Assembly: GCF_005696555.1 (NCBI RefSeq)
Contig: NZ_CP040005.1
Span: forward strand, 1,364,001 to 1,428,000
From: Actinomyces sp. oral taxon 171 str. F0337
GTDB taxonomy: Bacteria > Actinomycetota > Actinomycetes > Actinomycetales > Actinomycetaceae
Direction of reading: 5' to 3'
Length of the DNA: 64,000 nt
This document shows positions 1,186 through 62,316 of the stretch, one piece after another. The notes under the pieces are model-generated. The model made no database searches, was not told the DNA's origin, and was given only the letters and a program-made list of their open reading frames with translations. The position numbers and the translations under genes were made by a program. Positions within the stretch are counted from its first letter, which is position 1; each line of letters begins with the position of its first letter.

Positions 1186-1777
1186 GCACCCCCAGGTTCT
1201 CGACGCGCTCGGCCCCCGGCAGTGCTGCCAGCAGTGCTCCGGGCACCAGTAGCTTGGAGTGGCGCACACCCGAGCCGATGAGCACCGTGGTCCGGTCCGC
1301 CACGGCGCCGTCGATGAAGAGCCTCCAGTCCTCTGGCAGACCGACCGGTGTGATCCCGCCGTACTCCATGCCGCTCATCTCCACTGCCCGCTCCACCGGC
1401 AGGAATGAGGCCTTACGCACGTCAATGCGCTTCTTGACGACGTGGTTGACGTCAGCGAAGTCGGTGGCGCGCACGACGCAGGCGGCGATGCGCTCCTGGC
1501 CGGTGCGCTTACCGGCCACGAGCACGCAGTTCCCGGTCGCCTCGGGGTCCAGGTCATAGTGCGCGTTGAGGGCGTCAGTGTCGGAGTGGGCCGGGTCAAT
1601 GGGAACCACCTGCGCCTGACGGACCAGGTCCGCGCCCTCGGGCGAGGCCGCCTCCAGCGCCCGCAGCGCGGCGGCCACCGGCTCAGCGAGCAGATCGGTA
1701 CGCTCCAGAGCCGGCTGCCAGCCGATCTCCGCGGCGAAGACCTCAGCCGGGTCGCGCAGAACACTCATTCCTCTCAT
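1175..1777 (-). CDS. YbaK/EbsC-family aminoacyl-tRNA deacylase
   Basis: A 200-residue protein of the YbaK/ProX editing-domain type, which hydrolyses mischarged aminoacyl-tRNA (typically Cys-tRNAPro). Family features are the central GKRTGQERIAACVVRATDF region, a VKKRIDVRKASF segment carrying the conserved Lys, and GYGGITPVGL-like EYGGITPVGLP near residue 150. The ATG at 1777 overlaps the stop of the upstream acetyltransferase as ATGA, implying translational coupling; an internal ATG at 1768 is an alternative. The specificity (Cys, Ala or another residue) cannot be read from the sequence. Confidence 0.8.
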   Translation of the reverse strand: MRGMSVLRDPAEVFAAEIGWQPALERTDLLAEPVAAALRALEAASPEGADLVRQAQVVPIDPAHSDTDALNAHYDLDPEATGNCVLVAGKRTGQERIAACVVRATDFADVNHVVKKRIDVRKASFLPVERAVEMSGMEYGGITPVGLPEDWRLFIDGAVADRTTVLIGSGVRHSKLLVPGALLAALPGAERVENLGVRPA

Positions 1778-2427
1778 CCTTTCGACGACGTCGAGCGCCT
1801 CTCGATGCGCTCCACCAGACGGGTCCTGACCCCGGGCCACTGCTGCGGGGTGATGGCGAACATGGCTGTGTCGCGCGTGCGCCCCTCCTCGCCGGGAGCC
1901 AGGGAGGGCTGCCAGGCGCGCAGGATCCCCTCGAAGGTCGCGCCCAGCGCCGCGATCGCACCGCGAGCCAGCTCGTTGCGCGCATCGGTCTTGATGTCCA
2001 CGCGGTCCACGCCCCACTCCTCAAAAGCCTGTGTGAGCAGCAGGAGCTTGGCGGCCGGGTTGACGGCGGTGCCGCGAACAGCCGGCGAGAGCCAGGAGGA
2101 GCCGACCTCGACGGCGAAGAGCCGCCCGTCCGGCATCCATCGGGGTGTCAGGTAGGCGGTGTGCCCGACGACGCGGCCGGTGGCGACCTCCACCTGGGCG
2201 AACGGCGCGTAGGTACCTGTGTCCCGGCGGGCCAGGCTATGAGCCACATAGTCTTCGACCGTCTCCGGTGCCGGCACCGTGGCGAAAGGGCTGGTCGCGG
2301 CTGCCTCGGCGGCCTGCTGCAGCCCCGGCACGTGCTGGGGCTGCAGTGGCTCCAGGCGCACGATGTCGCCCTTCAGCACGCCACAGGTCAGAACGGGGGA
2401 GGGGGTGTGCGACTCGGTAGTGCTCAT
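1774..2427 (-). CDS. GNAT-family N-acetyltransferase (RimJ/RimL type)
   Basis: A 217-residue acetyltransferase of the RimL-like branch. It opens the usual way (GDIVRLEPLQPQHVPGL), has a VGHTAYL strand, and a core EVGSSWLSPAVRGTAVNPAAK region corresponding to the acetyl-CoA pyrophosphate-binding segment, followed by RNELARGAIAALGATFEG, typical of the family C-terminal half. Such enzymes acetylate N-terminal or small-molecule amines; the substrate is not predictable here. It is the first gene of a two-gene unit with the YbaK-like deacylase and is divergent from trmL across a 67-bp gap. Confidence 0.8.
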   Translation of the reverse strand: MSTTESHTPSPVLTCGVLKGDIVRLEPLQPQHVPGLQQAAEAAATSPFATVPAPETVEDYVAHSLARRDTGTYAPFAQVEVATGRVVGHTAYLTPRWMPDGRLFAVEVGSSWLSPAVRGTAVNPAAKLLLLTQAFEEWGVDRVDIKTDARNELARGAIAALGATFEGILRAWQPSLAPGEEGRTRDTAMFAITPQQWPGVRTRLVERIERRSTSSKG

Positions 2428-2494
2428 GCCTCAAGCATGGCAGCCGTGGCGCAGTCGCCGTCGGGACGCCTCAGTATGTGGTCTCATTGTCCCC

Positions 2495-2953
2495 GTGCTG
2501 CACGTCATCTTCTTCTCCCCGCGCATCCCGGGCAACACCGGGGCGGCGATCCGCCTGAGCGCCAACACCGGTGCCATGCTCCACCTCGTGGACCCCCTGT
2601 TCGACATGGATGACGCCAAGCTGCGCCGCGCCGGCCTGGACTACCACGACCTGGCCAGCACGCGCGTCCACGCTACCTGGCAGAAGTGCCTCGAGCAGAT
2701 CCCCGGACGCATCTTCGCCTTCACCTCCCACACCGAGCGCCTCTACACCCAGGTCGACTGGCACGGCGACGACGCCCTCCTGTTCGGCCCCGAGCCCACC
2801 GGCCTGCCCCAGGAGATCCTCGACCACCCGCGGGTGAGCGCCCACCTGCGCATCCCCATGGTGGAGGGCAACCGCTCCCTCAACCTGGCCAACTCCGCCG
2901 CCATCGGCCTGTACGAGGCCTGGCGGTCCCTGGGCTTCGTCGGAGGAGCCTGA
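2495..2953 (+). CDS. trmL: tRNA (cytidine/uridine-34-2'-O)-methyltransferase TrmL
   Basis: A 152-residue SPOUT (SpoU) methyltransferase matching TrmL/CspR in length. The N terminus HVIFFSPRIPGNTGAAIRL is the family signature. The knotted SAM-binding C-terminal part shows LLFGPEPTGLP, LRIPM and EGNRSLNLANSAAI. TrmL modifies the wobble ribose of tRNALeu. I chose the GTG at 2495 because it places the first strand at the normal position; the frame remains open upstream, but that stretch lies over the divergent gene's start region and has no family character. Confidence 0.88.
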   Translation: MLHVIFFSPRIPGNTGAAIRLSANTGAMLHLVDPLFDMDDAKLRRAGLDYHDLASTRVHATWQKCLEQIPGRIFAFTSHTERLYTQVDWHGDDALLFGPEPTGLPQEILDHPRVSAHLRIPMVEGNRSLNLANSAAIGLYEAWRSLGFVGGA

Positions 2954-2974
2954 GCTCCTGCTTCAACCGCCTTC

Positions 2975-3838
2975 TCAGAGCATGCCGGCGGGGCGGATCG
3001 CCAGGTCCTCCACGACCGCGTCCATCGGGGTGTTCACGGCCAGGCGCACGGCCGCTGCCACCGACTGCGGCGCCATATGGTCCGCAGCCCGGTAGGCGGG
3101 GGTGGCCATGATCCCCTCGGTGCGCAGGCGCGCCGCATTGAAGGCGTGCAACCGCTCCTGCATAGGGGTGTCCACCCGACCCGGGTAGATCGAGGTGACC
3201 CGCACCTTGCCCGTCTCCTCCTGACGCAGCGTGTCAGCCAAGGACTTCAGCCCCGCCTTGGAGGCGGAGTAGAGGGCGTTGCCCGACCGGGGGCTCACTC
3301 CGGCGCCGGAGTTGATGAACACCGTCAGCCCACGGGCCTCTCGCAGTGCCGGCAGCAGCAGGCTCGTCAGGTACGCCGTCGCCACCAGGTTGAGGTTCAG
3401 AACCGCCCGCCAGCGCGTGGGCGTGATCTTGTCAACGGCACCGGGTGCCTCCATGCCGGCGCTGTGCACCAGCACGTCGAGGCTCTCAATATCGATCCGG
3501 CTGACCAACCTCGCCAGGGCCGTGTCGTCGGTCAGGTCGACCGGACAGATGAGGACTGCCGTCTTGGACTCCTCCTCCAGTGCGAGCGCCAGCTCCTCCA
3601 GGTCGTTGACGGAGCGGGCCAACAGAATGAGGTCGTGATCCCGGGCCAGGTCCCTGGCCACGGCCAGGCCGATCCCGGAGGTCGCCCCGGTGATCAGGGC
3701 GATGGGGCGGCGCTGGTGGCGGCCGGAACCGGCGCGCGTGAATCCATGAGCGGGAGTGAAGGGGACGGACTCCCCCTGACGACGACGTCGGCCGGCCTTG
3801 GAGGCCGAGGCGTCGACCTGGGCGATCTGTGGACTCAC
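2975..3838 (-). CDS. Short-chain dehydrogenase/reductase
   Basis: A 287-residue classical SDR. After about 45 low-complexity residues come the Rossmann glycine motif TGATSGIG, an acidic D in CPVDLTDD, the HSAGME motif, and the catalytic Ser (NSGAG) followed by Tyr-Lys in YSASK. The GTG start at 3838 overlaps the stop of the upstream PEBP-like gene as GTGA. This was preferred because the open frame running further upstream only shadows that gene. Substrate unknown. Confidence 0.85.
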   Translation of the reverse strand: MSPQIAQVDASASKAGRRRRQGESVPFTPAHGFTRAGSGRHQRRPIALITGATSGIGLAVARDLARDHDLILLARSVNDLEELALALEEESKTAVLICPVDLTDDTALARLVSRIDIESLDVLVHSAGMEAPGAVDKITPTRWRAVLNLNLVATAYLTSLLLPALREARGLTVFINSGAGVSPRSGNALYSASKAGLKSLADTLRQEETGKVRVTSIYPGRVDTPMQERLHAFNAARLRTEGIMATPAYRAADHMAPQSVAAAVRLAVNTPMDAVVEDLAIRPAGML

Positions 3839-4410
3839 TGGCCGTCCCTGAGGAAGGCGGCGGCCCCGAGCTCCCCGGGCACGGAGTAGGTGGCGGTGAG
3901 CGTGGCCCGGGCGATGCAGTGAGGTGCCAGGGTGAAGGCCGCCTTGGCGGGACTGGCCTCGTCGTTCAGGCCCAGAGTGTCCACGTCCAGGGCGGAGACG
4001 GTGAAGACGTAGCGGTGGTCGCCGTCGCCCGCCGGCGGGTAGGGGCCGAACCAGGCGTGGTCGCCCGAGTCCCCGGCCAGGTGGAAGGCGGCACCGTCGA
4101 GCTGAAGGTCGCTGGCCCCCGAGCCCCGCTCCAGCGAGGTGACCGAGGCGTCCAGGTCCACGATGGTCCAGTGCCACCAGCCCGACATGGTCGGAGCGTC
4201 CGGGTTGAAGCAGGACACGACGAAGGACTGCGTCTGCTCGGGGAAGCCCGACCAGCTCAAGGCGGGGGAGACGTTGTCGTGGATACCGGTGAAGATGTCC
4301 GGGATCCGTCCCCGCTCGGTCAGGTCCGCAGAGGTCAGCGTGAAGGAGGGGACCGAGGGCAGGAGGCCGGTAGGGGCCGGCGGGCGGGGGCGAGTGAGGT
4401 CGGCTGTCAT
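3835..4410 (-). CDS. YbhB/YbcL-type phosphatidylethanolamine-binding-like protein
   Basis: A 191-residue member of the bacterial PEBP/Raf-kinase-inhibitor-like family. Diagnostic elements are NVSPALSWSGFP, FVVSCFNPDAPTMSGWWHW, the GDSGDHAWFGPYPPAGD loop, and the HRYVFTVSALD strand. The family has a small anion-binding pocket; its bacterial role is mostly unknown. The start at ATG 4410 is supported by GGAGGT six bases upstream. An ATG at 4464 in the same frame lacks such a site. Coupled to the SDR by a 4-bp overlap. Confidence 0.85.
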   Translation of the reverse strand: MTADLTRPRPPAPTGLLPSVPSFTLTSADLTERGRIPDIFTGIHDNVSPALSWSGFPEQTQSFVVSCFNPDAPTMSGWWHWTIVDLDASVTSLERGSGASDLQLDGAAFHLAGDSGDHAWFGPYPPAGDGDHRYVFTVSALDVDTLGLNDEASPAKAAFTLAPHCIARATLTATYSVPGELGAAAFLRDGQ

Positions 4411-4609
4411 AGGTGTACCTCCAGGCAGGTGATGGATAGGGGTGGTGGCCTTCCATGAGGGCACAGGCCCACTGTAGACGCCACTCCGCAGACCCGTCCC
4501 TGTGGATCTCCTGTGGGAGAACTTCGCAGACTCGTCATGCTGTGAGACCTCCTTGTTGCCGGCGCCCCCGATTGATGTCGCAGCGCAGCGTTATCCTGAA
4601 CGACAGGCA

Positions 4610-4625
4610 TCGAACCTATGTACAG
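4610..4625 (+). promoter_or_regulatory. Candidate LexA (SOS) box upstream of imuA'
   Basis: TCGAACctatGTACAG matches the actinobacterial SOS consensus TCGAAC-N4-GTTCGA perfectly in the left half and partly in the right. It lies just before the imuA' ribosome-binding site, where a LexA repressor would block transcription. Confidence 0.55.
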
Positions 4626-4638
4626 AAGGAGGGGTGTC

Positions 4639-5466
4639 ATGAGAGCCTCGACCACGCGCGCGCCATCGGACACCCAGAACCGCCTCAACCAGGCCCGCCT
4701 CGCCCTGAGACTGGCCGAGGAACGCACCGGACTACGCGACTGCGCAGCCCTGACAGTGCAGCGCGCCCTCCCCGCGGCGCCCTCTGCCTGGCAGGGTTCC
4801 GGTGTCCTCACCCTCCAAGGATCCACCACCGTCCTCCTGGCCGCCCTCGCCCTGCGCCAGGGCGCTACCGGCTGGTGCGGCGTCATCGGGGGAGACGAGC
4901 TGGGCTGGTGCGCGGCCACCGAGGTCGGCCTCGACCTCAACCGGGTCCTCACCGTCCCAACCTCCCTCCTCGATGACGCCTCCACCCCGACGGTCACCGC
5001 CGCCCTGCTCGACGGCGTCGATGTCCTCCTCATCGGCGCCCCCGTCGCCGAACGCCTGCGCCCCCAGCACCGCAGACGCCTGCTGGCCCGGGCGCGCGAG
5101 CGCGGCCGCCTCATCCTGACCCCCGCCCGCTGGGAAGGCGCCCGCATCCTCCAGGCCGGCCCCCTGGCCCCCGACACCGGAACCGGGAACACACCTCCCG
5201 CTCAGGACCCGGTGGAGGCCCCCGGAAGGCCCTCCGCCGACGGCGTCGTCATTCCCATCGGGCGAGGAGGCTCACCCTCCCCGGTGCGAGCCATCGAGAT
5301 GCCAGCCGGATACCTCCAACGCCTCACCTGGGCCCTGACCGACCCGCAGCGCCCACGGCTCACCGCTACCGAAGAGCTCACGCTCTCACTGTCCGCCGAA
5401 GGACTGCGCACAGGTTCTCGCAACGCCGTCGACTCGGCCCCCAATCCGCAGGAGGCGACCGGATGA
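4639..5466 (+). CDS. imuA': ImuA'-like mutasome accessory protein
   Basis: A 275-residue protein coupled (ATGA overlap) to imuB, the arrangement of the actinobacterial imuA'-imuB cassette. ImuA' is a diverged RecA/SulA-like protein that bridges ImuB and the error-prone polymerase DnaE2 in SOS translesion synthesis. Visible are a QGSGVLTLQGSTTVLLAAL segment and a CGVIGGDELGWCAATEVG segment resembling degenerate RecA-core strands, without an intact Walker A motif. The start at ATG 4639 has AGGAGG six bases upstream; an upstream ATG (4618) lies inside the LexA-box-like site. Assignment rests on position, size and weak motifs. Confidence 0.75.
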   Translation: MRASTTRAPSDTQNRLNQARLALRLAEERTGLRDCAALTVQRALPAAPSAWQGSGVLTLQGSTTVLLAALALRQGATGWCGVIGGDELGWCAATEVGLDLNRVLTVPTSLLDDASTPTVTAALLDGVDVLLIGAPVAERLRPQHRRRLLARARERGRLILTPARWEGARILQAGPLAPDTGTGNTPPAQDPVEAPGRPSADGVVIPIGRGGSPSPVRAIEMPAGYLQRLTWALTDPQRPRLTATEELTLSLSAEGLRTGSRNAVDSAPNPQEATG

Positions 5467-7163
5467 ACCCGCCACAGCCGACCCCGCCGTCCGACCCGCC
5501 CGCCTCCAGACTCGTGGCCATCTGGGTCCCCGACTGGCCCGTCGTCGCCCTCACCCTGGAGACCCGCCAACAGCGTCGACACGCCCGTGCACGCCAAGGA
5601 GCCCCTCACCTGCCGGACCCGGCCACCGAGCCCGTCGCCGTCGTCGGCGCTCGCGGAGTCCTCGCCGCCTCCGCCCCGGCTCGCCGCGCCGGCATCACCA
5701 CGGGCATGCGACTGCGCACTGCCCGGTCCCTGTGCCCTGAGCTCACCGTTCTCCCTCCCCAGGAGGAACGCCAGAGCCGCGCCTTCGAAACCGTCATGGA
5801 GGCCCTCGGCTCCCTCCTGGCAGACCCCACGGTGGCCCGCCCCGGGCTGGCCCTGTCCAGCGCCAGAGGACCCGCCGCCTGGATCGGCGGAGAAGAGCCC
5901 CTCGCCTCGGCCCTCGTGGAGACCGTCACCCAGGAGGCCGACGTCGAGTGTCAGATCGGCATCGCCGACTCCCTGTCCGGAGCCGTCCTGGCCGCCCGCC
6001 AAGGCATCATCGTCGAACCAGGACGGACCCCGGAGTTCCTCGCCCCCTGGCCCCTGGACGCACTCCTGACCTGCCTGCCCCTCAGCCGCCTACGACGCGA
6101 CGCCCGCCCCCTGCTGGAGACCTTCACCCGACTCGGCCTGCGCACCCTGGCGGACCTGGCGGCCCTGCCCAGAAAAGACGTCACCGCTCGCTTCGGCCCC
6201 CTGGGGAGCAGGCTCCACCAGCTGGCCGCCGGCACCCACCACGAGGCCCCCGCCATGCCCCGGCCGGCTCAGGACATCACCGTCACCTCCGAGCTCGACC
6301 CTCCCGTCGAGCGCGCGGACACCGCGGCCTTCGCCGCCCGCCACCTCGCCGAGAACCTGGCGGCCCGCCTCCTGTCCGCAGGGCTCGCCGTCGGACGCCT
6401 CTGCGTTGCCGCCCGCTGCGAGGACGGCACCGACCTGGCCCGAAGCTGGATGCTGGAGGCCATTCCCACCCCCACCGAGCTCACCGAGCGCGTGCGCTGG
6501 CAGCTCGAGGGGTGGCTCTCCGGACGCTCCGGGCGCCCACCCTCCTCCGGACTGACCCACCTGAGCCTGACGGCCCTCGAGCTGAGCCCGGCCACGACCT
6601 CCCAGACGGGACTGTGGCAAGCGCCGGGTCACCAGGGCCAGGCACGCGCCCGCCGCACCGCCGAGCGTGTGGAGTCCCTCCTCGGAGCCGGAAGCATCCA
6701 GGTTCCCCAGGTCATTCCCGGGCGAGACCCGCGCTCACGGGTGCGTCTGATTCCCTGGGGTGAGAGCGGAGGCGTAGGTGACTCCACGGGTGATGAACCG
6801 GCGCCCTGGAGCGGGGCTCTGCCTGAGCCCTCGCCCTCTATCGTCCTGCCCCGGCCGGTTCCCGCGTGCCTCACCGACATTCAGGGGAGAGAGCTCGGCG
6901 TCGACATCCACGGTCAGCTCGACGGTGTCCCCGGCTTCCTCAGCGTCGACGACGGTGCGGATGACGCTGAGGATGATGCTGTTGAGAGCGTGCCCCGGAT
7001 GGAGTCCGTGCTCCTGTGGGCCGGCCCCTGGCCGGTCGACGAGGGCTGGTGGACCTCTCGAGGGCCTTCGCGTCGCGCCTACCTCCAGGTGGTCACTGAG
7101 GTCGGGCCGCCCCGCCTGCTGGTGCGATCAGGCCGGTGGTGGCTCGATGCCGTCTACTCCTGA
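5463..7163 (+). CDS. imuB: ImuB, catalytically inactive Y-family polymerase-like clamp-binding protein
   Basis: A 566-residue DinB-related protein. Fingers/palm-like sequence appears around residues 15-120 (AIWVPDWPVVAL; AGITTGMRLRTARSLCP), and a helix-hairpin-helix-like DVTARFGPLGSRLHQLAAG near 240. The acidic residues that bind metal in active Y-family enzymes are not in place, as expected for ImuB. QTGLWQ near residue 380 fits the beta-clamp-binding pattern (QxxLW). The last ~50 residues (GPWPVDEGWW ... SGRWWLDAVYS) resemble a small domain often separate or C-terminal in ImuB relatives. Overlaps imuA' by 4 bp and runs 36 bp into the convergent PAP2 gene. Confidence 0.88.
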   Translation: MNPPQPTPPSDPPASRLVAIWVPDWPVVALTLETRQQRRHARARQGAPHLPDPATEPVAVVGARGVLAASAPARRAGITTGMRLRTARSLCPELTVLPPQEERQSRAFETVMEALGSLLADPTVARPGLALSSARGPAAWIGGEEPLASALVETVTQEADVECQIGIADSLSGAVLAARQGIIVEPGRTPEFLAPWPLDALLTCLPLSRLRRDARPLLETFTRLGLRTLADLAALPRKDVTARFGPLGSRLHQLAAGTHHEAPAMPRPAQDITVTSELDPPVERADTAAFAARHLAENLAARLLSAGLAVGRLCVAARCEDGTDLARSWMLEAIPTPTELTERVRWQLEGWLSGRSGRPPSSGLTHLSLTALELSPATTSQTGLWQAPGHQGQARARRTAERVESLLGAGSIQVPQVIPGRDPRSRVRLIPWGESGGVGDSTGDEPAPWSGALPEPSPSIVLPRPVPACLTDIQGRELGVDIHGQLDGVPGFLSVDDGADDAEDDAVESVPRMESVLLWAGPWPVDEGWWTSRGPSRRAYLQVVTEVGPPRLLVRSGRWWLDAVYS

Positions 7164-50395: not shown

Positions 50396-50791
50396 TCACC
50401 GTAGCCACCACTGGGGAGTCAGATCGGCGAGAGTCATCGTCTTCCCCGCAGCGAAGTCGATCATCACCTCGATATCACCGAACCGGTTCGGCATCAGCTG
50501 CGTCATCATTTCTCGACACGCTCCACAAGGCGGACCGGTACAGCCGTCGCGCATAATAGTCAGAACACGCCGAATCGTGTCCTCACCGTTGGTGATCATG
50601 TTGAGTATCGCGTTACGCTCGGCACAGATTCCCAGTGTGCAGGCCGTGTCCACGCAGACGCCCGTATAGATTCTTCCGGAGGACGCCTCCACTGCAGCCG
50701 CGACACCGCCCGCCTCAATATATGAGGACACGTGACGAGGATGCTGAACAGCCTTGGCCGCTTCGTGCAGTGAGACCCACGTCGTGCTCAA
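50396..50791 (-). CDS. cdd: Cytidine deaminase
   Basis: A 131-residue enzyme of standard size. Zinc-binding and catalytic residues are in CAERNAI and PCGACRE. TTG at 50791 is chosen as start because it gives the normal N terminus (STTWVSLHEAAKAV) and has GGAGA seven bases upstream; the longer frame covers the divergent HTH gene. Its substrate could be another pyrimidine or blasticidin-like nucleoside. Confidence 0.85.
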   Translation of the reverse strand: MSTTWVSLHEAAKAVQHPRHVSSYIEAGGVAAAVEASSGRIYTGVCVDTACTLGICAERNAILNMITNGEDTIRRVLTIMRDGCTGPPCGACREMMTQLMPNRFGDIEVMIDFAAGKTMTLADLTPQWWLR

Positions 50792-50846
50792 AGGTGTTCT
50801 CCATCTGACTGACCCGGCCTGCCCTGAGGCAGGGCTGGGTAGGGGC

Positions 50847-51299
50847 TTGCTAGTACACCTGGGCAGCATCAATCCGAACAACTGGCTACCCCTGCTCGCC
50901 TTCCGTAAGCGCCTCATCGCGGGTGAGCTGGCTTCGGAGTCGAGCACGTCTAGCGTAGCGTCTACGACAGAAGTGAGCGAGACCACGACGGCCCGCGGCA
51001 TCCGCAAGACGGCCTGCCGTCCGATCAGCGCGGCGAAGAAGCAGCAGATACTCGATCTGGAGCCCACCGGCATGTCCGCCCGAGCGATCGCTCGGCAGGT
51101 CGGCACATCCACTTCCACGGTGAAGGCTGTCTGCCGCCAGGCCACGCAACCACCCCGCCGCAAGCGACGCTTCACCGACGACGATCTCCAGCGTGCCCAG
51201 CAACTCCACGCCCAGGGCCGTACCTACATCGAGATCGGCCTGGAACTCGGCTTCGGCCGGGATACAGTGAGCAAGCATCTGGCGGCAGCACAAGCCTGA
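50847..51299 (+). CDS. Helix-turn-helix protein, recombinase-like fragment
   Basis: About 150 residues starting at TTG 50847 (GTAGGGG upstream; start uncertain). Two HTH-like segments are seen: ISAAKKQQILDLEPTGMSARAIARQ and FTDDDLQRAQQLHAQGRTYIEIGLELGFGRDTVSKHL in pattern, like the C-terminal HTH of serine resolvases or transposase regulators. No catalytic recombinase domain is present. Could be a relic of a mobile element marking the edge of the accessory island. Confidence 0.5.
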   Translation: MLVHLGSINPNNWLPLLAFRKRLIAGELASESSTSSVASTTEVSETTTARGIRKTACRPISAAKKQQILDLEPTGMSARAIARQVGTSTSTVKAVCRQATQPPRRKRRFTDDDLQRAQQLHAQGRTYIEIGLELGFGRDTVSKHLAAAQA

Positions 51300-51503: not shown

Positions 51504-51531
51504 TTGACATTGCCGTCAAAAAGCATATAAT
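51504..51531 (+). promoter_or_regulatory. Near-consensus sigma70-type promoter
   Basis: TTGACA (51504-51509), a 16-bp spacer and TATAAT (51526-51531): both hexamers match the housekeeping consensus exactly. It points at a structured region with a terminator and no ORF. Confidence 0.75.
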
Positions 51532-51537
51532 CATAAC

Positions 51538-51616
51538 CAGACACAGTTGATCGCCGTGTCACCAAGAAATCTCCGGCATGTAGTTTTCAGGCTACCCCGC
51601 GGGAGATTTTTATTTG
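51538..51616 (+). ncRNA. Putative structured small RNA of about 80 nt
   Basis: The consensus promoter reads into a short region with two stems and no ORF. Stem 1 is GACAC/GTGTC (51540-51544 with 51556-51560). Stem 2 is AAATCTCC/GGAGATTT (51567-51574 with 51602-51609), enclosing a nested GTAG/CTAC pair (51580-51583 with 51592-51595). TTTATTT follows directly as an intrinsic terminator. The RNA would end eight bases before the stop of the convergent small basic protein gene. I do not recognise an RNA family. Confidence 0.55.
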
Positions 51617-51623
51617 GTGAGCT

Positions 51624-52040
51624 TTAGCGCGGTTTCCTATCAAAGACCGACATGAAGTCCTTGCGTCCAGTGCGCTTGTCTTCCTTAACCTGCACACAGA
51701 AGTAGATGCCATCTTTGGTGATGCCGTAAAAGCGGTGCAGCGAAATGTTGCGATCATCGGCATTAAAGGTCGTTTCCGGAGTGATCTGCGAGTGACGCAA
51801 GACGTCGAGTGCAGCGCGGTAGAATCGAAGCCGTCTTGTGCGTTCTTTCAGTCGCTTCTGCATCACGTGATCCCAAAATACGTTCAAAAATACTTTGTTG
51901 CCATTGAAATACTTCGATTTGACGTACGGCTGTCGTTTGGTTGAGTGCGCGATGACGTTGTATTCCTGGCGAGCGTGGCTCAGTGCCTCAGCATAAGATG
52001 ATCCAGGTAAGCGTGAATATTTCGATGTATAGACATTCAT
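51624..52040 (-). CDS. Small basic protein, candidate RelE/PBECR-like nuclease
   Basis: A 138-residue basic protein. The C-terminal half reads LHRFYGITKDGIYFCVQVKEDKRTGRKDFMSVF in outline (a charged beta-rich end with conserved-looking His, Lys and Arg), preceded by helices KRLKERTRRLRFYRAALDVL. This layout suggests a RelE/barnase-EndoU-like RNase fold, but I cannot name the family. ATG 52040 has TTGGAGTA upstream; earlier in-frame ATGs lack a site. It is convergent with the putative small RNA. Confidence 0.55.
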   Translation of the reverse strand: MNVYTSKYSRLPGSSYAEALSHARQEYNVIAHSTKRQPYVKSKYFNGNKVFLNVFWDHVMQKRLKERTRRLRFYRAALDVLRHSQITPETTFNADDRNISLHRFYGITKDGIYFCVQVKEDKRTGRKDFMSVFDRKPR

Positions 52041-52122
52041 TACTCCAATCAGTATACAATGATTACATGCCCATGAGAAGGCCATCAACGCCGCAATTTT
52101 TCAAAGAAGACAACTTCGATGG

Positions 52123-54850: not shown

Positions 54851-55381
54851 TTATCTACGAATATAATTCAACTCGACAATTCCATTATTTGTTATCGTGT
54901 TGATTAATTTCAATTTATGTTCCGCATCATTTTGGCTAAATAATTTTATACCATTCCCTAAAATTGTCGGAACAATGGATATAAGATACTCATCAATCAC
55001 ATCTGAAGAAATGGCTTGTTGAACTAAGTCTGCTCCTCCACATATCCAAATATCTTTTCCTTCAACCCCTTTTAATTTCTTGATCAATTCCTCCAAATTA
55101 TCACTTGTAAAAATGATCTTATCGGAATCTTGTTGTTCTCGGTGAGTGAAAACATAAGTCAATAAATTGTCATAAACCCAATTATCAGGGGATAACTCAG
55201 TTATTATCTGATTGTAAGTATTCCAACCCATCAGAACTGTGTCTATATTTTTTATAAACTCAGAATAGGTACTTTCGTTTTCTAAACAATCTTCATGGCC
55301 TTGCAGAAAAGCGACACCCCCATTTTTATCAGCAATATAGCCATCTACACTCATAGCTATAAACAGTTTTACTTTTCTCAT
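54851..55381 (-). CDS. RibD/dihydrofolate reductase-family protein, AT-rich, probably from Firmicutes
   Basis: A 176-residue protein of the RibD C-terminal/DHFR-like superfamily (YwjB type): VKLFIAMSVDGYIADKNGG, VLMGWNTYNQI, IWICGGADLVQQAI and IDEYLISIVPTILGNGI are family features. Codon use is strongly AT-rich (AAA, TTA, ATA), unlike all core genes, so it was acquired recently from a low-GC host. The cellular substrate is unknown; such genes occur on clostridial mobile elements. Confidence 0.85.
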   Translation of the reverse strand: MRKVKLFIAMSVDGYIADKNGGVAFLQGHEDCLENESTYSEFIKNIDTVLMGWNTYNQIITELSPDNWVYDNLLTYVFTHREQQDSDKIIFTSDNLEELIKKLKGVEGKDIWICGGADLVQQAISSDVIDEYLISIVPTILGNGIKLFSQNDAEHKLKLINTITNNGIVELNYIRR

Positions 55382-57887: not shown

Positions 57888-59360
57888 TTATTCCCGCCAG
57901 TTGCGCTCTACAGGCTTCTCGGGCATGGTTGACGGCCTAAACAACTTGGAGTCACTTGCCTCCGCAAACCAGCCAATCCAGCGGTCAACAAACTCTCGCA
58001 AGTCTGCGCGGTCGAGCTGCTCGAGGGGCCAAGCAAGTTGCGTGCCGCTAATCACTCGCTCGAACGCCCTCGAGATCTCCTCTGGCTGTGCGGCGTACGG
58101 CACCATTCGTTGATGGTTACGCCAATCCATAAACGCAAGTTCAAACCATTCAAACTGCCCCTTATGCATCGCATCGCAATACCACAGAGAATGTGAGCGT
58201 CCAGGGTAGTCGTTGTGAGTCGATGTTTGCAACAGTTGGATACTGGCGCAGGCAATCACCTCAAATGGTCCGCTCCATCGCTCTGGTTCGACTATTCGTG
58301 GGCCCACAAACTCGAGACGCGCCGCGGCCAACGTCACGCTTGAGATCGTGATCTTGTCACCGAGATTCGTCTGCTCGTCTCGTTGCTCGGTCTTTGCGAG
58401 AGGTGCGTTATCGACGATCGTGTTCTGTACCGTCGCTCGGAGGTTCTCGAATGATCGGCATGCGTCTTGGAATAGCTCCTTGCGCCGTTCCAACAACGTC
58501 CTGCGCTGTTCATCGTCGGCAAACGCTTGCGAGCGCAGCGCCGAAAAGTGTTGCGAGACTTGCTGTAGCTGTTGTATGCCAGGACTTGCAGGAGTGTCTG
58601 CAGCGTGGGCGAGTTGCTGCAGAACCCAATCGGCGGTGGGGCGTGCTTCGGCCGCTTTGTAAAGGCACTGTTCGACCATGACCTGTAGTCGCGGCACCTC
58701 GATGCTCAAATCCGGCGGAGCAGCGTGAAGGTGCATCTCTCGTAGTTCTTCGACGGTGTTTGCTTGGAACGGCAAGTGGCCCTCTAGCAGTTCGTAGGCC
58801 ATCACCCCGAAGGCGTATATGTCGGTGGACGGCGTCGCTCGTTTATTCCGCCACTGCTCAGGGGAAGCATACAGCGCAGTGAAGCTATACTTACGCGTCG
58901 CAGCAGATGTTGAGGCGTCTCGATAGCGGGCGATGCCAAAGTCGCATAGCTTCCAGACGCCGTCCGTGTAGAGCACATTCTCTGGCTTAAGGTCACGATG
59001 AACCAGACCTGCTTGTTGAATCTCTTTCAGCCCGTGCGCGACATCGGAGAGGATGGAAATCTTCTCCTCGAGGCTCAACACATTATCCGTAGTGTACTGC
59101 CGTAGAGAATACTCGGCACGCGGCATGATCAGGACGTACATGCCGTCATCCTCACCACTGTCCAGCACGGGCACGACGTGGGGCAAGTTCGTTGAGGCTC
59201 CGATCAGGAGCTCGCGCTGAGCGCCAGGCTTGATCGAGACGAACTTCGCCACCGCGCGCTCGACGCCGTCCCTCCACGCCTCTCGCACCGATCCATACCC
59301 ACCAGCACCGAGCTCGTCGCCGACTTCCCACGCATGCTGCTCAAGCTTCACCGTCACCAT
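57888..59360 (-). CDS. Serine/threonine protein kinase with unknown C-terminal domain
   Basis: A 490-residue soluble kinase. Residues ~10-270 form a Hanks-type domain: Gly loop GAGGYGSV, catalytic Lys in AVAKFV, HRDLKPENV near 120, CDFGIARY and SPEQW. A coiled, charged linker (~280-330) follows, then a ~160-residue domain I do not recognise (FVGPRIVEPERWSGPF; SLWYCDAMHKGQFEWFELAF; DRWIGWFAEAS). No PASTA repeats or membrane helix, unlike core PknB. Its place beside a helicase-nuclease suggests a defence role (inference). Confidence 0.8.
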   Translation of the reverse strand: MVTVKLEQHAWEVGDELGAGGYGSVREAWRDGVERAVAKFVSIKPGAQRELLIGASTNLPHVVPVLDSGEDDGMYVLIMPRAEYSLRQYTTDNVLSLEEKISILSDVAHGLKEIQQAGLVHRDLKPENVLYTDGVWKLCDFGIARYRDASTSAATRKYSFTALYASPEQWRNKRATPSTDIYAFGVMAYELLEGHLPFQANTVEELREMHLHAAPPDLSIEVPRLQVMVEQCLYKAAEARPTADWVLQQLAHAADTPASPGIQQLQQVSQHFSALRSQAFADDEQRRTLLERRKELFQDACRSFENLRATVQNTIVDNAPLAKTEQRDEQTNLGDKITISSVTLAAARLEFVGPRIVEPERWSGPFEVIACASIQLLQTSTHNDYPGRSHSLWYCDAMHKGQFEWFELAFMDWRNHQRMVPYAAQPEEISRAFERVISGTQLAWPLEQLDRADLREFVDRWIGWFAEASDSKLFRPSTMPEKPVERNWRE

Positions 59361-59814: not shown

Positions 59815-62316
59815 TTAGTGCCGCCCTGACCTCGAGAAACGCTTCATAAAGTAGGTTGCGCTCAATCCATTATTACTAAGGAGATTGGTGACTCGATCGG
59901 GATCGCGAAAAGCGTCGTTCGTTGCCAGCCCTGTAGCGAAAGCTCGTACGGAATCCCGTAGCCGTGTAAGTCGTTCCGTCGTGATAATGCGGCAGCCTAT
60001 CGGTATTGCGGCATGTGAGTCGAACTTTTCCTCTGGGTGAATCAGCACTGGCGTTGCTTCGCTGCTAGGGTACTGCAGCCGAAACCAGTCCATGGCGTTT
60101 GACAGTTGTTCGGCATCTTTCTTATACACAGGGTGGCCGGAGGCGGCCCCGCTCTTCGCTTCGATGACGTAAAACGATCCGTCGCAAAGTGCCCAGAGAT
60201 TGTCTGGCCCACGTCCGAGTGTATCTTCTGGCCGCTGCCCTGTGTGGCCGATATGCAAGGCGAGATCATGCATGGCCTGTTCGAACCGTGCAGTGCGCGG
60301 TCCCCAATCGAGATCCTGCAATACAGCCTCAAACCCAAGTAAGAGGTCATTACCGGAAACGTATCTCTTTTGCAACCAGGAGGAAGCCTGCTCGCCTTGA
60401 GGGCGGCTTGCCGCCTTGAGATTCTCGTATTGTACTCCCTCCAAAGGGCGAAGGAGTCGCCTGTTCGCAAGGTTCGCTATCTTCTGGATCTGTTGAGCCT
60501 CGGAACGGTCGAAGAAATTAGTGTAGGCCGCGAGCTGCTGTCTATAGATAGCCTGTGTAACGATTTCATCCCCAAGACCATTCACGGCTCTTTGCTGTGC
60601 TCTGACTGCGGCCGCATAGTCTCTACGCTGAGCGGCGTCGAATGCTTCTCGCTCAGCACTGGCGGTGTCGGTAATCCCAGAACTGTCGTACCGGACCGGG
60701 GCCAGCGCAGCCTTACTATAGGCCACCCAATCTTTATCACGTTCGAGGCATTGCTCCATGATTTCGTGGAGGTCATCTAGCGAGTCGGCCTCGATCTCAT
60801 TGGCAATCTCCAATGCGAGGTCCAATTGTGCCCTTGTTGCGGGTGAGAAGTGGTCGCGTGCCTCCGGTGCATTGAGCCGCTCAGCCAGCCGCGCTCCCAG
60901 GAGAAGGACCACAGCATAATCCTCGTTCGAACGGGTAGCTCGCCCCATACCCTGCTCCAAGCGTTGAACCTGTCGACCAAGGAGCCTTGTTGACCCGACC
61001 AACCGAGCCTGTTCCAGCCGCTCCCGTCCGTCGAGCGCTTCTGGCAGGCCATCCAACACCAATACGTGGCAGGCGTTGTCGGGCAAGTCAATCCCGTCGT
61101 AGCGGTTGATGAGCACTATCAGACCCAATTTTGGGTTGTTGCGTAACTGCTCGATGCCCTGATCGATGTTCTCACGGTCCAGCACGTCGGCTGCGTAGTC
61201 CTGCCACCAGTCGGCTCGGCTGCGGCTCGGCACGATAACCACGACGTTCTGCTTCTTGGCTAAGTCGAGGACGAGATCACGTACCTCTTCGTTCGTCGCG
61301 CTGGGTACAAGTTGCTGTGGCACGAGGATCATTCTATCCCCAATATCGCCCGCGCTCGAGGGAGAAATCGGCCGTGAGACTGACTCCGGTGCCGCACCGA
61401 AGTGCCGAATCAGCACCGAGTCGTCAGCAAGGGTGGCGGTGAGGTAGACGCGCCGCCGTGCCTGTGAAAAGCCGAGGAGCATCTCTGTAGGGTGACAAGG
61501 GGGATAGATCTCGAAAGCATCGCTGGTGACCACGGCAGTGCAGAGGGGGAGGCTATCTACGACAAGCGGCCAGCCCCACTTCAGTACCTCGCTTTCCGAG
61601 ATCGGATGGAGGATAGACAAGACCCGATCCTGCTTGTCCTGCCATGCCCAAAATGGGACCTCCTGAATCGCTGACCGACGTCGCGCTTTTAGGTCTAGTA
61701 GACCATTAGGAGACTGCACCCTCAGATCATCAGCAAACAGGTCCAGCAAATCGCTGTACGCCTCCGAGCCGTACTCGATGCGGAGCCGGAATACATGATC
61801 CGCTTGAGCGATGCAGGCATGAGCATCATCAATGATCACTCCGCCGAGACTGTGGGAGGGAGGCTTTGACACATTACCACCGACACCGAATACGGACAGG
61901 CCATTGAAGAGTTTCGCGAACGTCCCGACGAGCACGGCGCGTCCCTGTTGGTACTCGGGTGCCTTGGAATCCTTCGTGGTCGCGATCCCGATCCGGCCCG
62001 CCTCATCTACGACCTGCTCAAGCAAAAAACCATCAGGCACGAGATATGCGACGGGTCGGATACCCTCATTGAGCCAGCTGCGCGCGATGAGGAGCCCGAC
62101 CAGCGTCTTGCCGCCACCTGTGTTCATCTTGATTACAAGGTCTTGCTCGTCGCGACGGTCATACCAGGCGGCCAGAACTTGATCCTGAGGACCTCGCAGA
62201 TAGTCTAGACCAGCAACCTTCTCAGGTAAGGCGTTGAACAGGTCTCGAGGATCGGTAATCGTGTTGACTGAAGCCGAGGCCCCCTGGCTTAGTCGCCTGA
62301 AGTTGATCTTGGCCAT
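59815..62316 (-). CDS. SF2 helicase fused to a PD-(D/E)XK nuclease-like domain
   Basis: An 833-residue protein. Helicase motifs: Walker A KMNTGGGKTLVG (residues 63-74), Walker B IIDDAHA (near 160; DDAH box), motif III LTATLAD, and motif VI EQGMGRATRSNEDYA, as in DinG/XPD-like SF2 enzymes. The C-terminal ~150 residues contain DNLWALCDGSFYVIEAKSGA near 710-723, a D...ExK nuclease pattern. It likely translocates on and cuts DNA. Minus-strand and followed after a gap by the kinase; nothing resembles the core recombination machinery. Confidence 0.8.
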   Translation of the reverse strand: MAKINFRRLSQGASASVNTITDPRDLFNALPEKVAGLDYLRGPQDQVLAAWYDRRDEQDLVIKMNTGGGKTLVGLLIARSWLNEGIRPVAYLVPDGFLLEQVVDEAGRIGIATTKDSKAPEYQQGRAVLVGTFAKLFNGLSVFGVGGNVSKPPSHSLGGVIIDDAHACIAQADHVFRLRIEYGSEAYSDLLDLFADDLRVQSPNGLLDLKARRRSAIQEVPFWAWQDKQDRVLSILHPISESEVLKWGWPLVVDSLPLCTAVVTSDAFEIYPPCHPTEMLLGFSQARRRVYLTATLADDSVLIRHFGAAPESVSRPISPSSAGDIGDRMILVPQQLVPSATNEEVRDLVLDLAKKQNVVVIVPSRSRADWWQDYAADVLDRENIDQGIEQLRNNPKLGLIVLINRYDGIDLPDNACHVLVLDGLPEALDGRERLEQARLVGSTRLLGRQVQRLEQGMGRATRSNEDYAVVLLLGARLAERLNAPEARDHFSPATRAQLDLALEIANEIEADSLDDLHEIMEQCLERDKDWVAYSKAALAPVRYDSSGITDTASAEREAFDAAQRRDYAAAVRAQQRAVNGLGDEIVTQAIYRQQLAAYTNFFDRSEAQQIQKIANLANRRLLRPLEGVQYENLKAASRPQGEQASSWLQKRYVSGNDLLLGFEAVLQDLDWGPRTARFEQAMHDLALHIGHTGQRPEDTLGRGPDNLWALCDGSFYVIEAKSGAASGHPVYKKDAEQLSNAMDWFRLQYPSSEATPVLIHPEEKFDSHAAIPIGCRIITTERLTRLRDSVRAFATGLATNDAFRDPDRVTNLLSNNGLSATYFMKRFSRSGRH

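Follow-up and report, generated by a model that had tools for sequence, protein, structure and literature searches.

Organization of the locus

The window, the whole stretch of 64,000 nucleotides that was analysed, carries a predicted small RNA gene on the plus strand that converges with the gene of a 138-aa basic protein on the minus strand, 12 bases separating the T tract of the former from the stop codon of the latter. The features are as follows.

50754..51299, plus strand: HTH protein gene upstream of the RNA, an Actinomyces neighbour outside the minimal module
51504..51531, plus strand: putative promoter of the RNA gene, TTGACA (51504-51509) and TATAAT (51526-51531) with a spacer of 16 nt between them
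51538..51612, plus strand: predicted small RNA gene of ~75 nt, its start placed at 51538-51540 from the promoter position
51540..51560, plus strand: 5′ hairpin GACAC...GTGTC, which most RNAs of the family lack
51567..51609, plus strand: conserved hairpin (57-row and 55-row RNA alignments)
51567-51574 with 51602-51609, plus strand: outer stem of the conserved hairpin, 8 bp
51575 and 51601, plus strand: G-G mismatch of the conserved hairpin
51576-51577 with 51599-51600, plus strand: GC/GC step of the conserved hairpin
Between the GC/GC step and the inner stem, plus strand: asymmetric internal loop of the conserved hairpin
51580-51584 with 51591-51595, plus strand: inner stem of the conserved hairpin, 5 bp
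51585-51590, plus strand: hexaloop of the conserved hairpin
51607..51611, plus strand: T tract of the intrinsic terminator, sharing its first three bases with the outer stem, where they are paired
51624..52040, minus strand: basic protein of 138 aa (P0001), stop codon included; putative ribonuclease toxin of RelE/BECR fold
52041..52060, minus strand: leader of the protein gene, TTGTATACTGATTGGAGTA (-10-like TATACT, then GGAG), a possible promoter

The sequence-only reading had described an exact TTGACA-N16-TATAAT promoter, a region with two stems and an intrinsic terminator devoid of open reading frames, and a basic 138-aa protein on the other strand, all of which held up. Both boxes are exact in the window sequence (51504-51531), the hairpins lie at 51540-51560 and 51567-51609 and the T tract at 51607-51611, no ORF of at least 60 aa in the window ORF list overlaps the RNA gene, and the coding frame of the protein (51627-52040, minus strand; stop codon 51624-51626; pI 10.2) has its stop codon 8 bases from 51616, the end point given there for the RNA region. 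Eight bases separate the promoter from the 5′ hairpin. The 79-nt segment 51538-51616 folds at −27.7 kcal/mol as compared with −15.2 kcal/mol after shuffling (z −4.6; 0 of 200 shuffles as low), and 51540-51612 gave a z of −4.5; the lowest-energy fold of the window RNA holds one extra U-G pair in the inner stem. Rfam gave no match to the window RNA at the gathering threshold and none at E 5, and on eight related loci it returned only two tRNAs and two weak mirror-strand matches over those tRNAs.

A search of 59 genomes (the window's own and relatives) found the whole protein in the own genome and in two others of the genus, whose copies are 69% and 63% identical to it; one further genome has a truncated copy. 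Both other whole Actinomyces copies have the same RNA downstream in convergent orientation. Promoter and RNA together are 93% (116 bases) and 87% (98 bases) identical in DNA, exceeding the identity of the proteins (63%, 69%), and the TTGACA and TATAAT boxes are unchanged while the intervening spacer differs; because RNA and promoter are kept in these two genomes at such identities, we do not regard them as a product of chance. The leader of the protein gene is near-identical in loci L011 and L012 and takes a variant form in the truncated copy, L005. At L005 (genome G024) the homologue stops after ~36 residues (1501-1608 onward), and a 487-aa frame on the opposite strand (1540-3003) is transposase-like by eye.

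Predicted fold of the 138-aa protein

NCBIfam and PHROG gave no match to the 138-aa protein at E 0.1. No RelE-type model of Pfam or NCBIfam matched the window protein, none of those in Pfam matched 14 homologues, and a ToxN match in Pfam was likewise absent from the window protein and the 14 homologues. Several hits were examined and set aside as weak: Pfam TetR_C_17 in two of the 14 homologues (best E 0.00081; the window protein scored 13.5 bits against a cut-off of 26.1), Pfam DUF1033 and DarT in one homologue each (E 0.0084 and 0.025), and PADLOC Cas13Nterm (E 0.0026, 16.1 bits). The best rows of a PDB sequence search, a Ras-like GTPase (E 0.097) and 4D2 (E 0.019), were taken as chance.

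RelE, BrnT, HigB, YoeB, MqsR and CdiA toxins make up one fold group. A comparison with RelE folds had been proposed from the letters alone, and its outcome leaned that way: among the families listed, RelE/BrnT/YoeB/CdiA-type toxins gave the top alignments of two AlphaFold models (pLDDT ~95), at modest Z scores of only 5.4 and 5.0, all below 8. Foldseek of the protein models against the PDB yielded no match at E 0.001, and its top rows were unrelated proteins (CPLANE, CaMKII hub, orange carotenoid protein and PTP1B, with monellin for the second model). From these models we consider a RelE-like fold supported but not firm. Among the 14 homologues K49, H58, K62, R70, Q117 and S131 are invariant, and R103 and K119 near-invariant.

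Distribution of the pair and linkage of RNA and protein

A three-protein profile searched against genome contigs recovered the two known Actinomyces loci and 11 further loci, of which, by record label, eight are Saccharibacteria, Nomurabacteria or Komeilibacteria, two are "bacterium" and one is a Clostridiales MAG. The contig of the last (L013) is 4.4 kb long and could be mis-binned. The protein occurs in 18 of 392 genomes from the class to which L014's genome belongs (presumably Saccharibacteria) and in 27 of 379 genomes of the phylum of L021's genome (labelled Komeilibacteria; phylum name presumed), two samples that overlap in genome G128; a sample of 286 genomes from the window's phylum yielded it in the window's own genome alone. 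No match was obtained for the window DNA in plasmids, for the window protein in plasmids, phages and viral contigs, for the protein alignments in viral contigs, or for a Komeilibacteria homologue and the RNA in plasmids and phages. An exact-core RNA pattern, which proved too strict, matched nothing in the genome contigs.

The stretches downstream of 63 protein genes were read, and the same RNA motif was recurrent. The resulting alignment has 57 rows: L046, L047, L048, L051 and L081 were left out as truncated, fragmentary or broken, as was L025, where the extracted stretch cut the hairpin and the protein match holds a stop codon; L077 and L078 were retained despite stop codons within their protein matches. 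A covariance model was built from 55 of the rows (without L060 and L083), and the window RNA, itself a training row, scores 51.3 bits at 51562-51614.

A model match faces the stop codon of the protein in 67 of 70 gene copies, a count that takes in L005 and L085-L090 and leaves out a protein fragment at G748:C21; this bears out the co-occurrence of RNA and protein that had been put forward for checking. Outside model training, 12 of 15 gene copies have an RNA match, some of them being paralogues of training rows. The three copies lacking a match are L005, the full-length L060 and the partial L081, and at the latter two divergent hairpins are visible by eye only. The RNA was detected in 20 genomes of the 392-genome sample, including all 18 that bear the protein (Fisher p 4e-29), and in 42 of the 379-genome sample, including all 27 (Fisher p 7e-31), counts that are partly circular because the RNA model was built from protein-bearing loci. 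In two of the 27 (G693 and G595) the RNA matches lie on other contigs than the protein gene. Across 49 genomes of the window's genus the model found the RNA in four, three of which have a whole protein; in the fourth, G059 (E 0.016), the 2.9-kb stretch around the RNA contains no copy of it.

Conserved structure of the RNA

The consensus of the 57 RNAs is a hairpin. Its outer stem, which is variable, is followed by a G-G mismatch, a GC/GC step and an asymmetric internal loop, beyond which an inner stem of 5 bp carries a loop of about six bases. The covariation check proposed beforehand turned out positive, all 14 consensus pairs showing compensatory changes on both sides with pairing kept. Altogether 95.0% of 798 cells are paired, compared with 79.7% after shuffling and 45-58% with the partner slid, and the covariation score is 0.587 against 0.270 for the control; these comparisons are not probabilities, since the alignment tested is also the one that gave the structure, and its rows are related. 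A nested hairpin suffices for the covariation counted. G-U or U-G cells number 73 and A-C or C-A cells nine, which identifies the RNA read from the promoter strand, and not its complement, as the selected molecule. C51577 and G51599 are invariant across 55 rows. The conserved unit is nearly all paired and varies mainly within compensated stems, and neither the 57-row nor the 55-row alignment contains a variable guide-like segment, which speaks against the RNA-guided effector that the sequence-only reading had offered as one possibility.

Promoter-like boxes accompany most copies. A promoter score of at least 10/12 was found upstream of 38 of the 57 RNAs (against 2.9% of 1140 control windows taken from these loci) and one of at least 9/12 upstream of 52 (15.7% of the 1140 control windows), with five RNAs below 9/12. 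In 41 of the 57 the best -10 match lies at most 15 nt from the main stem, which leaves no room for a 5′ hairpin, so most of these RNAs would be little more than the conserved hairpin; the extra 5′ hairpin belongs to a minority that includes the Actinomyces RNAs, L013, L031, L049 and L106.

RNA genes without an intact protein

The RNA is intact beside truncated, frameshifted or stop-bearing proteins at L046, L047, L048 and L051, and beside a 32-residue protein remnant at L145. RNA-only genomes with matches at E 1e-6 or better number seven in the 379-genome sample and one (G385) in the 392-genome sample; in G385 (L149) the frame adjoining the RNA ends like the C-terminus of the protein, at only E 0.035. 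Eight of the 15 RNA-only genomes of the 379-genome sample have weak matches (E 1.8e-5 or worse). One RNA-only match, in G147, was rejected as a plain terminator, and some of the weak ones may be the same. By-eye inspection covered 13 RNA places, of which ten lie in genomes with the RNA only and three are additional copies in genomes that bear the protein; solo RNAs with promoter-like boxes were among them.

One hairpin per gene copy is the usual count, with four RNA genes at L032 and two at L088, where every RNA unit has its own T tract; the extra copies at L032 stand apart from the protein gene's 3′ end. At L143 (G595:C1:1000-5000) four RNA copies fall within 4 kb, a stretch in which no protein partner was detected, and two of these RNAs are near-identical, upstream region included. 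That the RNA outlives the protein, and that whole protein genes hardly ever occur without the RNA, is what an antitoxin predicts. RNA genes that stand without the protein may also have another job.

Evolutionary history and genomic setting

In a tree of 63 proteins the three copies from Actinomyces cluster together (100/93), nested in a set of 17 rows (97/92) whose other 14 rows are labelled Saccharibacteria by titles or class sample; the bootstrap had not converged, and support is weak for 32 of the 60 inner branches. Transfer from a Saccharibacteria lineage to Actinomyces is the simplest reading, its direction and donor being putative. Some Saccharibacteria live on Actinomyces hosts. Cultured Saccharibacteria are described in published abstracts as epibionts of other bacteria.

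The cassettes of Patescibacteria occupy unrelated genomic places, some of them amid housekeeping genes. At L020 (Nomurabacteria; 3023-7069) the genes of ribosomal proteins L5 and S8 flank the cassette together with an IS-type integrase, at L015 the cassette lies between uvrD and an rRNA dimethylase gene, and at L014 a cytosine methylase is nearby. By eye no third gene is common to nine loci; a 94-96-aa gene lies just upstream of the protein at L019 and L022 and was not seen in the other seven. An HTH gene, its likeness judged by eye, lies near the RNA in four Actinomyces loci: the window, L003 (2290-2793, minus strand), L004 (2283-2924, minus strand) and L009 (449-1216, plus strand). It is convergent with the RNA at L009, where HTH gene and RNA occur with no copy of the 138-aa protein within the 2.9-kb stretch, and on the RNA's strand in the other Actinomyces loci. 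As a third component it was dropped, being single-copy in its own genome and unrecognised by eye in seven non-Actinomyces loci.

A putative toxin-antitoxin cassette

Because the RNA and the protein recur as a unit in Patescibacteria, which are ultra-small and depend on hosts, and in a few Actinomyces, the pair looks like an undescribed RNA-antitoxin system. The conserved RNA structure, its strand, the convergent linkage, the persistence beside broken protein genes and the boxes at most copies are computed observations. The reading we favour, to which we give a probability of about two-thirds, is a stand-alone two-gene toxin-antitoxin cassette in which a RelE-like RNase would be silenced by a hairpin RNA. 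The RNA would be transcribed from its own strong promoter, and the 138-aa protein would be a ribonuclease toxin of RelE-like (BECR) fold that recognises the hairpin with its conserved mismatch and internal loop. By binding the protein directly the RNA would hold it inactive; should RNA synthesis stop or the cassette be lost, the RNA would be the first to disappear, leaving the protein free to cut cellular RNA. Distances among proteins and among RNAs are correlated (Mantel r 0.51, 0 of 2000 permutations), as expected of partners and also of linked genes.

The strongest rival, because linkage and structure fit it too, casts the RNA as an activating cofactor or processing substrate that the protein binds or trims to become a ribonucleoprotein effector in defence or regulation. 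Tight pairing and the protein-binding-like shape of the RNA suit it equally well, and the window cassette adjoins a defence-like island, yet the RNA genes persist alone and beside broken proteins, the RNA has no variable guide segment and some cassettes sit among housekeeping genes, all of which makes such an effector unlikely. We hold it improbable that the RNA acts as an antisense transcript of type I kind, blocking expression of the protein by base-pairing to its mRNA at the start or the 3′ end. The two transcripts do converge, and an mRNA extending beyond the stop codon may overlap the RNA; known type I pairs can overlap at their 3′ ends; against this, duplexes of the RNA with the mRNA start are no stronger for cognate than for mismatched partners (−23.4 and −23.6 kcal/mol; 57 loci, start region), a covarying structure is not required for antisense action, the extra RNA copies of L032 are distant from the protein 3′ end, and the protein, basic and 138 aa long, is no small hydrophobic peptide.

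An equally improbable reading makes the RNA an independent regulatory small RNA, with the protein as its processing or regulatory partner. The protein-negative genomes with RNA matches at E 1e-6 or better and the promoter-like boxes seen by eye at several protein-less RNAs would suit this, but the RNA is present in all protein-bearing genomes of both samples and adjacent to the protein in nearly all copies. Least probable of all, and hardly credible, is that the region is only a terminator working in both directions, or a mobile-element hairpin that acts as DNA: the RNA region does end in a terminator and the cassette looks mobile at L020, yet the near-consensus promoter boxes, the excess of G-U over A-C, the conservation of a loop and mismatch motif for which a terminator has no need, and the solo and duplicated RNA copies all argue against it.

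If the toxin-antitoxin reading is correct, the pair would be a compact model for the silencing of an RNase by one RNA hairpin. A wider proposal, that it represents a new class in which a RelE/BECR-fold RNase is silenced by a tail-to-tail hairpin RNA of ~50-75 nt, spread in Patescibacteria and passed between a Saccharibacteria lineage and Actinomyces, with orphan RNAs as retained immunity against incoming copies, is more tentative, and we put it at somewhat less than even odds. Since Patescibacteria carry the pair together with Actinomyces, the hosts of some Saccharibacteria, parasite-host gene exchange would be directly testable in common laboratory strains, as would orphan-RNA immunity. Many genes of Patescibacteria have no known function.

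Comparison with known systems

The suspicion of an unrecognised RNA-protein module was strengthened by the covariation and the conserved linkage, and its protein leans towards a RelE-like fold at modest Z. Its description as type III-like survives in part: as in ToxIN, CptIN, TenpIN and AbiQ, a small structured RNA is linked to an RNase-like protein, but the gene order and the repeat-type antitoxin of strict type III systems are lacking. As defined in PMC5086642, a type III system is an operon that encodes a MazF/Kid-like toxin and, upstream of it, an RNA made of repeats, with a terminator separating the two. In the present family a convergent RNA faces the stop codon in 67 of 70 copies and has promoter-like boxes of its own (at least 10/12 in 38 of 57); the antitoxin would usually be a single hairpin, with a T tract per unit in multi-RNA loci, instead of processed repeats; and the fold may differ as well, since among the families listed RelE-like rows, not MazF/Kid-like ones, rank first for the protein models, with modest Z. 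Direct inhibition of a protein by RNA is known for type III and proposed for the present pair. We file the pair as a kind of RNA-controlled toxin and not as a member of type III.

AvcID, as described in PMC10511110, resembles the pair in having an RNA antitoxin that inhibits a toxin other than a ToxN-like RNase, and differs in that its toxin is a deoxycytidylate deaminase and its RNA is ~170-300 nt long, compared with the ~50-75-nt hairpin here. The type II toxins RelE, BrnT, HigB and YoeB and the BECR-fold CdiA toxins provide the best structural alignments of both models; unlike them, the 138-aa protein has no sequence family match and its conserved partner is an RNA, no conserved protein antitoxin or immunity gene being recognised beside it. 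In the type I pairs bsrG/SR4 and txpA/RatA the RNAs are convergent, 3′-overlapping antisense RNAs that act by base-pairing, and the toxins are small and hydrophobic; the convergent gene order is shared with our pair, whereas its protein has 138 aa and a pI of 10.2. Among the literature matches listed, mostly openings of abstracts and from a search outside which most subscription journals lie, none describes this RNA or protein and none a RelE-type toxin held by an RNA antitoxin.

Other genes near the cassettes

Within the defence-like island that the window cassette adjoins, an 833-aa helicase-like protein (59815-62316, minus strand) matches the PADLOC candidate PDC-S28 near end-to-end (E 1.4e-299), and a Ser/Thr protein kinase (57888-59360, minus strand) resembles mad6 and PD-T4-6 of PADLOC. 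Directly upstream of the A. oris cassette at L011, and divergent from it, lies the gene of a 1255-residue protein (1996-5763, minus strand) that has no Pfam match at E 0.001. A protein whose window copy carries a Pfam RibD_C domain is encoded near the cassette in the window (54851-55381, minus strand) and at L012 (4189-4716, plus strand); the first 60 residues of the two are the same, and the gene that follows also begins alike in both.
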